Of a DNA stretch of 64,000 nucleotides, positions 13,950 through 19,337 are shown one piece after another. Under the pieces are notes generated by a model. The model ran no database searches. It was given only the letters and a program-made list of their open reading frames with translations, and was not told the DNA's origin. The stretch comes from Candidatus Saccharimonadota bacterium (lineage in GTDB: Bacteria > Patescibacteriota > Saccharimonadia > Saccharimonadales > Saccharimonadaceae), in assembly GCA_028286285.1 (NCBI GenBank), contig JAQBRV010000001.1, forward strand, positions 1 through 64,000, written 5' to 3'. Within the stretch, counting starts at the first letter, position 1; each line of letters begins with the position of its first letter. A program made the position numbers and the translations under genes.

Positions 13950-14350
13950 TGGTGGAGCTGCGGGGCACTGCCCCCCGGTCCAAAAGGTAACGGATTATTC
14001 GTCTACAAGCATAGTTTGTCTTAGATCTTTACAATCCATTGAGCTTAGAAACAAACATAAATGTTCAATGGATTGCGTGGAAAGGTTTCCTTTAGTATAC
14101 GCCACTGCGCATATACCAAGTAAGCGGCATAAATATAACACCACGAGCCACTATGTCGCCTGGCAGCAAGTGATGATCGAGCGTATTAGGCTGCGATTGG
14201 CGCAAAAGCAAGTGTAGGAACGCTCAAAGCGCTCTTTAGCTTAGCAAATGCTAGTTTAATTGGGTTTGCAATTAAAAATATACGTACGTGTATGGTCGGC
14301 TTGCAAAATAATCTGTTAATGTCCTCTTGTCGAAAGCTAATTTCAGCCCC
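13950..14350 (-). ncRNA. ssrA: tmRNA (transfer-messenger RNA)
   Basis: It rescues stalled ribosomes. The minus strand begins GGGGCTGA..TTCGAC (5' end at 14350) and ends CAGCTCCACCA (13950). The 7-bp acceptor stem forms (GGGGCTG/CAGCTCC, one G-U). The tag frame opens with GCA AAC at 14269 and stops at 14186. It encodes 27 residues starting ANPIKLAFAK and ending LAFAPIAA, longer than the common ~10-residue tags. The T-stem CGGGG/CCCCG closes the loop GGCAGTG, unlike the canonical TTCRANY loop. Length is ~401 nt. Confidence 0.93.
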
Positions 14351-17090: not shown

Positions 17091-17129
17091 ACTAAAATAT
17101 CCGCTCTCTAACGAGGCGGATATTTTAGT
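17091..17129. terminator. Hairpin shared by the rplT and rnpB ends
   Basis: A 14-bp perfect stem (17091-17104 with 17116-17129) with an 11-nt loop lies between the convergent rplT operon and rnpB. It has no clean U-tract, so it may act as a bidirectional terminator or 3' protection. Confidence 0.6.
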
Positions 17130-17462
17130 AGGCAGCCCGTCTGTAAGCCGGGTTCTGTCGTGGACGATCATCTATCTAGTCCGCCAGTTGCCTGGCGGAT
17201 CAAGCGGTTATCGGCCTGCGGACGAGCCGTCCTTATGTGCAGACCTCCTTGCAGCCGACAGGGTTTACCTCCTCTGTATGTCACCATACATCGCTGTGAG
17301 CTCTTACCTCACTCGTTTCACCTTTGCCCCCGAAGGGGTAGTTTCGTTTCTGTGGCACTTTCCCTAGGGTCACCCCCGGTCGCCGTTAGCGACTGTCGTG
17401 CCCTTCGCTGCCCGGACTTTCCTCCCCGAACAAGTCGGGGCGACCGTCTAACGAACTGCCTA
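17129..17462 (-). ncRNA. rnpB: RNase P RNA (class A)
   Basis: The catalytic RNA of tRNA 5' maturation. The minus strand contains the near-invariant GAGGAAAGTCCGGGC near the 5' end and ACAGAACCCGGCTTACAG near the 3' end. The ends pair as P1 (TAGGCAG/CTGCCTA). Length ~334 nt. A TATACT -10 lies at 17469-17474, overlapping the end of the Nudix-RNase HI gene. Confidence 0.95.
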
Positions 17463-17476
17463 GAATAAAGTATACC

Positions 17477-18352
17477 CTATTTTGCGTCGTCGTGAGCGTT
17501 TAAGATCTTATTCACCATGCCGTCAGCCAACTGATTGAACTCGCGCCGAACATGAGTGAAGGTGACTTTATCAAAATGAGTTATCAGCTCTTTAATACGT
17601 TCATTGATCGGCCATAGTTCCCGATTCTTAATCTGATAGATGCCGTTGAGCTGATTGACGACGAGGAGGCTATCAATCCGGCATTCTACAGTCTTTGCAC
17701 CCATTTCGACCGCCTTCTCGAGCCCTAATCGCACCCCTTGATATTCGGCCTGATTATTCGTCGTAATCCCGAGGTACATGCCACCCTGATGAATGACATC
17801 TTCGTGGCTATTCATAACCACAAAACCAGCCGATGACGGTCCGGGATTACCCCGCGAGCCACCGTCTGAGTAGATAAGGAGTTGTGAAATATCTGTTGTA
17901 TCAATGACATCTTTACTGATTAATTCTGCTTGTTTAACAGAGTGAATTTGCTGTTGTGATATTCCCAACAATAGCTTGGCGGACTCGGTGAGCTCGTTCT
18001 GCTGAATGTCAGACATTTTTTTCCAAAGGTATTTGTCGTAATTTTGACTCAATGTAATTGTCGAGCCTCTGGCTCCCAAGCTAACTAGATACAAAATAAA
18101 CACATACTGGGTGTCGCGATCATCGTGATCAATATAGGTGAGCACATCGAACAGTTGTGCAGTCTGGATAACGAGATCGGCTTCGTTCTTGAAATGACGA
18201 GCCAGCGCATCCTCTGGCTGCTCACCGTAATCTAGCTTGCCCCCAGGTAATTCATACTTCCCCAAAATTGTCGGCCGGCCGTTCGCCCGCCTTAGAAGCA
18301 GTGTCTTCTCATCTTTTCGAATAATAGCTCGGACGGCAATTCGTTGATTCAT
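17477..18352 (-). CDS. Nudix hydrolase - RNase HI fusion
   Basis: 291 aa from the ATG at 18352; reading further upstream would run through a tRNA-like sequence, so that extension is rejected. Residues ~1-130 form a Nudix fold, but the box reads GKLDYGE..RHFKNE, so two acidic positions of REUxEE are lost and activity is doubtful. Residues ~155-290 are RNase HI with all four acids: YSDGG, NNQAEY, RIDS, NQLADG. RNase HI cuts RNA in RNA-DNA hybrids. The long predicted 5' leader contains a tRNA-Pro-like structure. Confidence 0.85.
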   Translation of the reverse strand: MNQRIAVRAIIRKDEKTLLLRRANGRPTILGKYELPGGKLDYGEQPEDALARHFKNEADLVIQTAQLFDVLTYIDHDDRDTQYVFILYLVSLGARGSTITLSQNYDKYLWKKMSDIQQNELTESAKLLLGISQQQIHSVKQAELISKDVIDTTDISQLLIYSDGGSRGNPGPSSAGFVVMNSHEDVIHQGGMYLGITTNNQAEYQGVRLGLEKAVEMGAKTVECRIDSLLVVNQLNGIYQIKNRELWPINERIKELITHFDKVTFTHVRREFNQLADGMVNKILNAHDDAK

Positions 18353-18406
18353 GGTTGCTTTCTGTCTTATTCTGCCCTGTGGCATTATCATATCATCAAA
18401 TTCATT

Positions 18407-18511
18407 TGGTCGGGATGACAAAACTTGCACTTGCGACCTTACGGTCACCTTGCAAGCACCACTGGCGCTCCTCACCCTCGCCGTGCGCGCTACTAGACTG
18501 CACACACCCCG
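18407..18511 (-). ncRNA. tRNA-Pro-like structure with enlarged anticodon loop
   Basis: The acceptor stem is CGGGGTG with CATCCCG (one G-U), then A and an encoded CCA (18407-18409). The D-arm is GTGC/GCGC around AGTCTAGTA, as in tRNA-Pro but with the D-loop GG changed to AG. The T-arm is GCAAG/TTTGT with loop TGCAAGT. A helix ACGG/CCGT stands where the anticodon stem should be, but its loop is ~36 nt, with an internal GGCG/CGCC hairpin. It is not a normal tRNA: either a decayed proline tRNA or a tRNA mimic. It lies 55 nt before the Nudix-RNase HI start. Confidence 0.5.
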
Positions 18512-18698
18512 ACACCAGATAACAAAATACCCCAAAGACCGCCTTTGGACGCTTGATATTCCCCGTGCAAATGCAAGGTGGGTTTCCTTTGAGACGTCTC
18601 CACGGAGACGAACCATTCGGAATCCCTATCGTATGATATTAGGAAAATCATATACGCCCGAAGCAGCTCTGGGACACTCCCTATTATAACACTCTAGG
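18512..18698 (-). promoter_or_regulatory. Predicted promoter and leader upstream of the tRNA-like element
   Basis: The extended -10 TGT-TATAAT (18688-18683, minus) predicts a start near 18676. The leader contains hairpins CGTCTCC/GGAGACG (18595-18610) and TATGAT/ATCATA near 18632-18652. No ORF. The same RNA would carry the tRNA-like element and then the Nudix-RNase HI reading frame. Confidence 0.45.
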
Positions 18699-19337
18699 TT
18701 AAACTGTGACGCCGAATATCTGCGCAAATACAGCCAGAATTGCCCCGATCGCACTGGTCATAAACATACCGATAACAGAGCTGGCAAGCATCACAATAGC
18801 AAATATGAAAATGATGCCATACTGTTCGATTGCTTCCATACCTCGACGCACAAAGTCGGGCGCGAGCGCATAGAGTACCCTCGAACCATCAAGTGGTGGG
18901 AGGGGGATCATATTAAATACAAAGAAGCCAAGATTTACCAGCACGGCCGTCGTCAGTACCTGGCCCAGAATACCATCAGGACCCCCGAGGAGCGCATACG
19001 CACCAAAAAGAAGGAAGGCAATCACAAAGTTAGTCAACGGGCCAGCGAGAGCCACCAGAGCAGCTCCCCACTCGTCATATTTTAGCCGAGCCGGATTAAA
19101 CGGTACTGGTTTTGCGCCACCGAAGATCGGACCTCCAATAACCGCCAAAAGAAGTGGCAGTGCAATCGTTAAGATTGGATCGATATGCTTGATCGGGTTG
19201 AGTGTCAGCCGCCCCTCACGCTTGGCCGTATCATCACCGAGCCAAAAGGCGACAAAACCGTGCATCGCTTCGTGTAGTGTCATGGAAAACAAAATGACCC
19301 CAAGAACAATAACAATCCGTAGTACTAATTCTTCCAT
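18699..19337 (-). CDS. Site-2 protease family (M50) membrane metalloprotease
   Basis: 212 aa, multi-pass. The zinc site HEAMH is near residue 23 and the second ligand motif NMIPLPPLDGSR is in a later helix, as in the M50B/SpoIVFB-like group. Such enzymes cut membrane-anchored substrates in regulated intramembrane proteolysis. The substrate is unknown. TATAAT (19351-19346) ends 8 nt before the ATG, so the mRNA is probably leaderless. Confidence 0.9.
   Translation of the reverse strand: MEELVLRIVIVLGVILFSMTLHEAMHGFVAFWLGDDTAKREGRLTLNPIKHIDPILTIALPLLLAVIGGPIFGGAKPVPFNPARLKYDEWGAALVALAGPLTNFVIAFLLFGAYALLGGPDGILGQVLTTAVLVNLGFFVFNMIPLPPLDGSRVLYALAPDFVRRGMEAIEQYGIIFIFAIVMLASSVIGMFMTSAIGAILAVFAQIFGVTV

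Follow-up and report, generated by a model that had tools for sequence, protein, structure and literature searches.

A tRNA-Pro(GGG) pseudogene of Saccharibacteria, probably inactivated by a small three-hairpin element that recurs at tRNA genes

The tRNA-like sequence in the window (the whole stretch of 64,000 nucleotides that was analysed) is a dead tRNA gene, and its interest lies in the element that was found through it. It is the rest of a tRNA-Pro(GGG) gene linked to a 6S-like RNA; a copy of a small structured element probably put this gene out of action, and decay has followed. The first-pass annotation, which had named a dead tRNA gene as one of its readings, was right as far as it goes; what it had seen as an expanded loop would be one copy of a recurrent element.

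The interrupted tRNA-Pro(GGG) gene

A likeness to proline tRNA in the acceptor, D and T arms and an encoded CCA had been claimed for this sequence, and both were confirmed by direct reading (acceptor CGGGGTG/CATCCCG with one G-U pair, encoded ACCA), by a match of its 3' part to the tRNA-Pro(GGG) of a relative (92% over 38 nt, E 6.7e-10) and by synteny with intact tRNA-Pro(GGG) genes. The anticodon loop of about 36 nt with its own hairpin, the D-loop AG and the T-loop TGCAAGT could likewise be reproduced from the sequence and from fold prediction, which indicated that the hairpin inside the expanded loop is real. Between CACGG and CCGT, 36 nt are found where the 7-nt anticodon loop belongs; they start with CGAGG and lack U33-NGG, so that neither a 7-nt loop nor a proline anticodon is present. 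Alignment with six intact relatives revealed that position 9 is missing and that G18 is changed to A and T55 to G, both G18 and T55 being present in all six; as read from the sequence, A18 and G55 break the elbow pair. In addition, the acceptor strands are mixed, with a 5' strand of the CGGGGTG type and a 3' strand of the CATCCCG type, and the relatives carry either matched set. Neither ARAGORN nor Rfam (gathering threshold) called this tRNA, both listing four other tRNAs in the window, and the cloverleaf is not its predicted fold (-30.7 kcal/mol when constrained vs -46.0 kcal/mol for the predicted fold).

A search for an intact tRNA-Pro elsewhere in the same genome (773,895 bases, 98% complete) led to tRNA-Pro(UGG) as the only tRNA-Pro, with no GGG or CGG gene among 38 tRNA matches; a regenerated intact tRNA-Pro(GGG) is thus missing, unlike in relatives such as G153. 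A tRNA-Pro(UGG) alone would be expected to read all proline codons. As tRNA-Pro(GGG) is absent here and missing from nine of the relatives' loci that were read, it is dispensable and often lost.

Table 1. Features of the locus (positions in the window).
Feature	Position	Strand	Basis
tRNA-Pro(GGG) pseudogene with interruption and encoded CCA	18407..18511	(-)	Sequence, relatives
tRNA 5' part as far as the insertion: acceptor 5' strand, D arm, anticodon stem 5' strand	18476..18511	(-)	Alignment with six intact relatives
tRNA 3' part: variable region, T arm, acceptor 3' strand, CCA	18407..18442	(-)	92% identity, query 40-77
Putative element remnant: 5' GTGAG, H1 (CCAGTGG), GCAAGG, then GTGACC	18443..18475	(-)	Motif; covariance model R1
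6S-like RNA directly upstream of the tRNA	18526..18677	(-)	Rfam RF00013, 30.8 bits, E 1.3e-4; ten aligned genomes
TATAAT box, promoter of the 6S-like RNA	18683..18688	(-)	Sequence; conserved in alignment
Downstream Nudix-RNase HI gene (context)	17477..18352	(-)	Pfam NUDIX and RVT_3/RNase_H
Upstream M50 peptidase gene (context)	18699..19337	(-)	Pfam Peptidase_M50

The 6S-linked locus in relatives

A permissive Rfam search of 18300-18720 gave one match only, the 6S RNA listed in Table 1, with a score below the Rfam gathering score of 46.4 bits; the copy at locus L041 reached 32.2 bits. This 6S-like RNA and the TATAAT box are conserved in an alignment of the window and nine relatives, and the supposed promoter of a Nudix leader is therefore the promoter of the 6S-like RNA. 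The box indeed lies upstream, with the tRNA-like sequence between it and the Nudix start, as the first-pass annotation had it, but a leader dedicated to the Nudix gene is not supported. It may be added that the 6S-like RNA of Saccharibacteria scores below the gathering threshold of Rfam despite its conservation together with a promoter.

Altogether, 28 of 61 genomes, the own genome included, match a 301-nt stretch of the locus, and the gene order in relatives is M50 peptidase, 6S-like RNA, tRNA-Pro(GGG) and Nudix. An intact tRNA-Pro(GGG) directly follows the 6S-like RNA in seven loci that were read (L033, L034, L037, L038, L039, L046, L051), no tRNA follows it in nine (L035, L036, L040-L044, L047, L056), and in genome G016 (L059) the tRNA-Pro behind it is interrupted in the D arm. 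Where the tRNA adjoins, RNase P cleavage at its 5' end could define the 3' end of the 6S-like RNA. Rfam also detected tmRNA and RNase P RNA less than 5 kb from the locus (13950-14350 and 17128-17459 in the window), and RNase P RNA was found near the 6S-like RNA in 11 of 12 relatives' loci scanned.

A family of structured elements

The inserts of the window and of G016 have GTGAGGANNGCCAGTGG in common. This pattern occurred at 19 places in 12 of 295 genomes of the family, and the reversed pattern was absent among the control matches listed. Seventeen sequences, gathered with the pattern from window and G016, could be aligned as an 88-nt element of three hairpins in series (H1 to H3), in which 95.1% of the pair cells hold standard pairs. 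Changes on both sides were observed in 20 of 29 base pairs, a value reached in 0 of 500 shuffles, and sliding the partners destroys the signal. As the sequences were gathered by a pattern, the invariance of H1 is partly due to construction, leaving H2 and H3 unaffected. H3 contains a conserved G-U pair.

A covariance model built from the 17 sequences (R1) matched 78 of 394 genomes of the family, in 24 of 61 genera. In a phylum-wide sample 12 of 379 genomes were matched, eight belonging to the same family, two to other families of the order and two being weak matches beyond it. Among 84,980 species genomes an exact 29-nt motif was found in 44 stretches, with the record names Saccharibacteria, Saccharimonadia, Patescibacteria or just bacterium, and viral contigs gave no exact match to a 24-nt motif of the element. 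Rfam, searched with five element loci at permissive thresholds, holds no family for the core. Likewise, the element was not found in the open-licence literature on tRNA, introns, noncoding or structured RNA, 6S RNA and integration in Saccharibacteria, and the broader literature led to analogues only. From open-licence papers and Rfam 15 the family thus seems not to have been described before.

The own genome also harbours a full-length element (G000:C4:178074-178160, 75.5 bits), located behind tRNA-Gln(UUG). Between this tRNA and the core (L024) lies a second displaced tRNA-Gln 3' end, ending CCACCCCAGCCA and without a core, which is probably an older remnant.

The copy in the window

The 5' element motif GTGAGRANNGCCAGTGG is found exactly at 18475-18459; by chance, even when one mismatch is tolerated, these 17 nt would occur 0.01 times per window. 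When R1, from whose training set the window copy had been kept out, was run on the 64-kb window, it gave this place (21.2 bits, E 0.0013) as its sole match up to E 10, and within 18400-18520 (121 nt) the E value was 9.8e-6. The copy has kept H1 minus one base and, at its end, GTGACC, and has lost H2 entirely and H3 for the most part. An ungapped profile of its first 29 nt led to 7.6 bits (shuffled windows: mean 5.6, maximum 12.5), which is not significant because the copy is one base short, and for the same reason a longer pattern of fixed spacing misses it. Its identity as an element remnant is based on the match to the gapped model, on the 17-mer without mismatch and on where it lies.

Comparison with intact relatives indicated that the core in the window replaces GGCC in CTGGG-GGCC-GTGAGG. 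A full core is present at the same place of the same 6S-linked tRNA-Pro(GGG) in G095 (L135) and G153 (L145), reading CTGGG-core-GTGAGG; a promoter comes next and then an intact tRNA-Pro(GGG), behind which G153 carries an apparent displaced 3' end of the first tRNA, AAGTCCAGTAACCCCGACCA. Insertions into the D arm at this locus were detected in G016, G177 and G119.

Linkage to tRNA genes and junctions

The following counts refer to 142 copies in the loci examined, mostly the best-scoring among the matches listed. They remained from 152 model rows after ten had been left out: the window copy, L124 (cut at a contig end), repeats of one place (L101 twice, L131 twice) and four low-scoring rows (L079, L081, L091, L076; 20-32 bits) with overlap to copies on the opposite strand. 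A tRNA on the same strand lies within 400 bp of 120 copies, upstream in 74 (median gap 80 nt) and downstream in 46 (median 64.5 nt). Of the remaining copies, one overlaps with a tRNA gene, one is accompanied by a tRNA on the opposite strand, and 20, some located at contig ends, have no tRNA in this range. By chance such proximity would be expected for about 2%, as we estimate from 38 tRNA matches in 774 kb. The tRNAs involved belong to 12 amino acids, and the copies sit in the D arm, the anticodon arm or the T loop, once on the antisense strand of a tRNA-Phe (L100).

For 96 of 122 copies the flanks match the nearby tRNA (at least 16 of 20 bases), compared to 9 of 122 in controls with random tRNAs, and in 84 of these 96 exactly four tRNA bases are replaced, namely GTTC (53), GGTT (11), GCGC (10), GCAC (3) and single cases of others. 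The last base of the element equals the fourth replaced base of the tRNA, being T in 11 of 11 GGTT cases and C in 49 of 53 GTTC cases (exceptions L129, L134, L178 and L194), and A, T, G and A in the single cases of GTTA, GTTT, GGTG and GCAA. As the last base follows the tRNA, only the three bases before it (GNN) are lost from the tRNA, or just NN where the G comes from the tRNA itself.

Inspection by eye revealed that behind the terminator of the tRNA, downstream copies typically show an inverted tRNA 3' half and then a sense 3' half with the core in its T loop, and that upstream copies have the mirror arrangement; the units carry terminators of their own. Intact insertions are usually accompanied by a second, intact tRNA and the displaced half of the first, often beside an inverted form of the same arm, and at eleven tRNA places copies were found on both sides. 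At one tRNA-Leu(UAA) locus within one genus, 23 distinct loci were read, of which six are filled, two contain remnants and 15 are without the element. Outside tRNAs, a core in G209 lies in the loop of another repeat, and the related G255 reads GGCGGG-GTGG-CCCCGA there without a core. Two tRNA-Gln units of G255 have left flanks that are identical over 45 nt and cores that are only 67% alike. Empty and filled sites together with equal flanks around differing cores point to insertion and exchange. The palindromic repeat AAACCCATTCCGCGGGTGACGTTCGGCGGGGTGGCCCCGA...GGGGCGGACCGGACGGCAGGACCCGAGGGGGTTT, a host of the core that is not a tRNA, was observed in L204 (minus strand), L205 and L173.

Search for a mobilising enzyme

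A comparison of Y1 transposases, reverse transcriptases and HNH endonucleases across genomes led to no mobilising enzyme. Y1 transposases were present in 11 of 14 multi-copy genomes and in 2 of 16 element-free genomes, a difference that ignores kinship and is suggestive; no Y1 match was obtained in G015, G124 and G482, which contain at least 11 copies each (all copy numbers per genome are lower bounds), nor in the own genome. RAYT genes as mobiliser were rejected, as the palindromes at these genes differ from the core and three multi-copy genomes lack Y1; the core is present in 3 of 20 Y1 stretches. The RAYT-like Y1 genes themselves (L240-L257) encode about 200 aa, and many are flanked by short palindromes such as AGAAGGACGGACCTTCT. 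Reverse transcriptases (5 of 14 multi-copy and 6 of 16 element-free genomes) and an HNH endonuclease next to a variant tRNA-Leu (5 of 36 genomes) showed no link and were discarded as well. This HNH gene of about 165-175 aa (shorter in L215) is located directly upstream of, and runs into, tRNA-Leu(UAA) (L204:3138-3662, L209, L211, L215) in the genomes G209, G235, G229 and G124, where the D arm and the anticodon stem of the tRNA differ from those of sister species; the pair looks like a cassette of a homing endonuclease and a resistant tRNA.

Proposed mechanism and alternatives

From the tRNA linkage, the junctions and the filled and empty sites, a non-autonomous element that invades hairpin loops is the likeliest reading. 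An element of about 88 nt would insert into the D, anticodon or T loop of a tRNA, or into one of a few other hairpin loops, replacing a GNN triplet and keeping the next tRNA base as its own last base, and a second, intact tRNA beside the displaced half would leave the cell with a working tRNA. Entry might occur as single-stranded DNA or RNA, and foldback copying could then give rise to the inverted tRNA arms. The state of the window may have developed from one as in G095 by a deletion between the repeated GTGAGG pieces, which would explain both the missing intact copy and the mixed acceptor strands; the loss of tRNA-Pro(GGG) would be tolerable because tRNA-Pro(UGG) remains. Only tentatively, and stopping short of calling it probable, we suggest that Saccharibacteria host a mobile element of a kind not described so far, which would read the folded loops of hairpins, those of tRNA arms above all, in DNA or RNA that is single-stranded, exchange GNN for a conserved three-hairpin module and leave a regenerated tRNA along with displaced, partly inverted halves.

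The main competing explanation takes the core for a functional non-coding host RNA, built from duplicated tRNA pieces beside tRNAs and acting, for example, in the control of tRNA transcription, processing or turnover, with a decayed copy in the window. The strong covariation of the core, the G-U pair in H3, which favours RNA, and the terminators of the units are in line with such a role. Furthermore, the tRNA-Lys(CUU) copies of four species are 92-97% identical pairwise and their flanks beyond the unit only about 50% alike, a conservation that, judging by the sequences, could mean a host function rather than a parasite. Nevertheless, we regard a host RNA as unlikely in view of the sporadic spread over genomes and genera, the filled, remnant and empty states at one locus within one genus, the copies at many different tRNAs and also outside tRNAs, and the loci L078 and L082, which share identical flanks in one genome but differ in their cores.

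A common tRNA pseudogene with a loop that grew by chance, and with no element involved, would fit the other marks of decay (missing position 9, A18, G55, lost anticodon) and the nine loci that hold no tRNA whatever, but it is very improbable given the rarity of the exact 17-nt motif, the E value of the model in place and the use of the same site by the element in G095 and G153. Still less credible is the short intron that the first-pass annotation had considered, whose removal would give a working tRNA. The ends and the D and T arms are kept, and G016 carries the full-length core in the D arm of the same, otherwise undecayed tRNA; yet the replacement of four tRNA bases at most junctions means that clean excision leaves the tRNA unrestored, and in the window both U33 and the GGG anticodon have been lost; U33 and a proline anticodon are restored neither by the exons that remain nor by any simple excision. 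Moreover, Rfam gave no match to group I or group II introns in the window stretch or in five element loci, and no archaeal-type bulge-helix-bulge pairing was seen by eye at the junctions. Equally remote is a tRNA mimic in the Nudix-RNase HI leader that regulates this gene through RNase P or ProRS, an idea suggested by the position between the 6S promoter and the Nudix start codon and perhaps by an RNase P cleavage that would also free the 6S 3' end, and rejected from synteny, fold and decay: at this locus the relatives carry either an ordinary tRNA or no tRNA, and they show decay in place of a conserved mimic structure, no interrupted form with compensatory changes was found in close relatives, the predicted fold is not a cloverleaf, and the elbow bases are broken.

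Genes for tRNAs are the classic docking sites of large genomic islands. If the reading as a mobile element is true, it would show how tRNA loci for 12 amino acids, in host genomes of about 1 Mb, can be invaded and rebuilt by some 90 nt that follow a strict junction rule and carry no integrase, it would account for many odd half-tRNAs in these genomes, and it would supply a defined RNA with which to look for a binding protein or enzyme. The tRNA loci of one order of ultra-small bacteria would have been reshaped in this way, and the genome of the window would have paid with its tRNA-Pro(GGG). If the core is a host RNA instead, the candidate phyla radiation would have a layer of tRNA control that has gone unnoticed.

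Comparison with known systems

Rickettsia palindromic elements are structure-forming, dispersed and non-autonomous, measure about 100 nt and can sit in genes. The element shares its small size, structure formation, dispersal, apparent lack of autonomy and location in genes with them, but they occupy coding frames, whereas the element is tied to tRNA arms and has a conserved three-hairpin RNA fold and a fixed junction rule. REP elements are hairpin elements mobilised by RAYT (Y1) transposases. The hairpin nature of our element and the RAYT-like Y1 genes in 11 of 14 multi-copy genomes are reminiscent of this system; in contrast, the RAYT genes here are flanked by other palindromes and not by the core.

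Group I introns also sit in bacterial tRNA genes (PMC3984707). They are far larger, recognised by Rfam and spliced out, whereas the element has no Rfam match, costs the tRNA bases at its junctions and occurs in D and T arms too. The repetitive hairpin elements of mitochondria are single or double hairpin repeats in compact genomes, many of them beside tRNA genes (PMC2800124), and thus resemble the element in their spread near tRNA genes; unlike it, they differ in sequence and size and are mostly intergenic, and a duplication of tRNA halves is not among the features described in the available text of that paper. A parallel in layout is found in the genomic islands mapped by Islander: the tRNA gene is split by the insertion, the intact tRNA is restored, and the end of the island is recognisable by the displaced fragment (PMC4383910). 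In the relatives of our genome the element likewise splits a tRNA gene and has an intact tRNA and a displaced fragment alongside. Compared to such islands, the insert is only about 100-200 nt long, free of genes and without room for an integrase, it occurs at tRNAs of 12 amino acids within one family, a GNN triplet is lost on insertion, and an inverted tRNA arm is often left behind.
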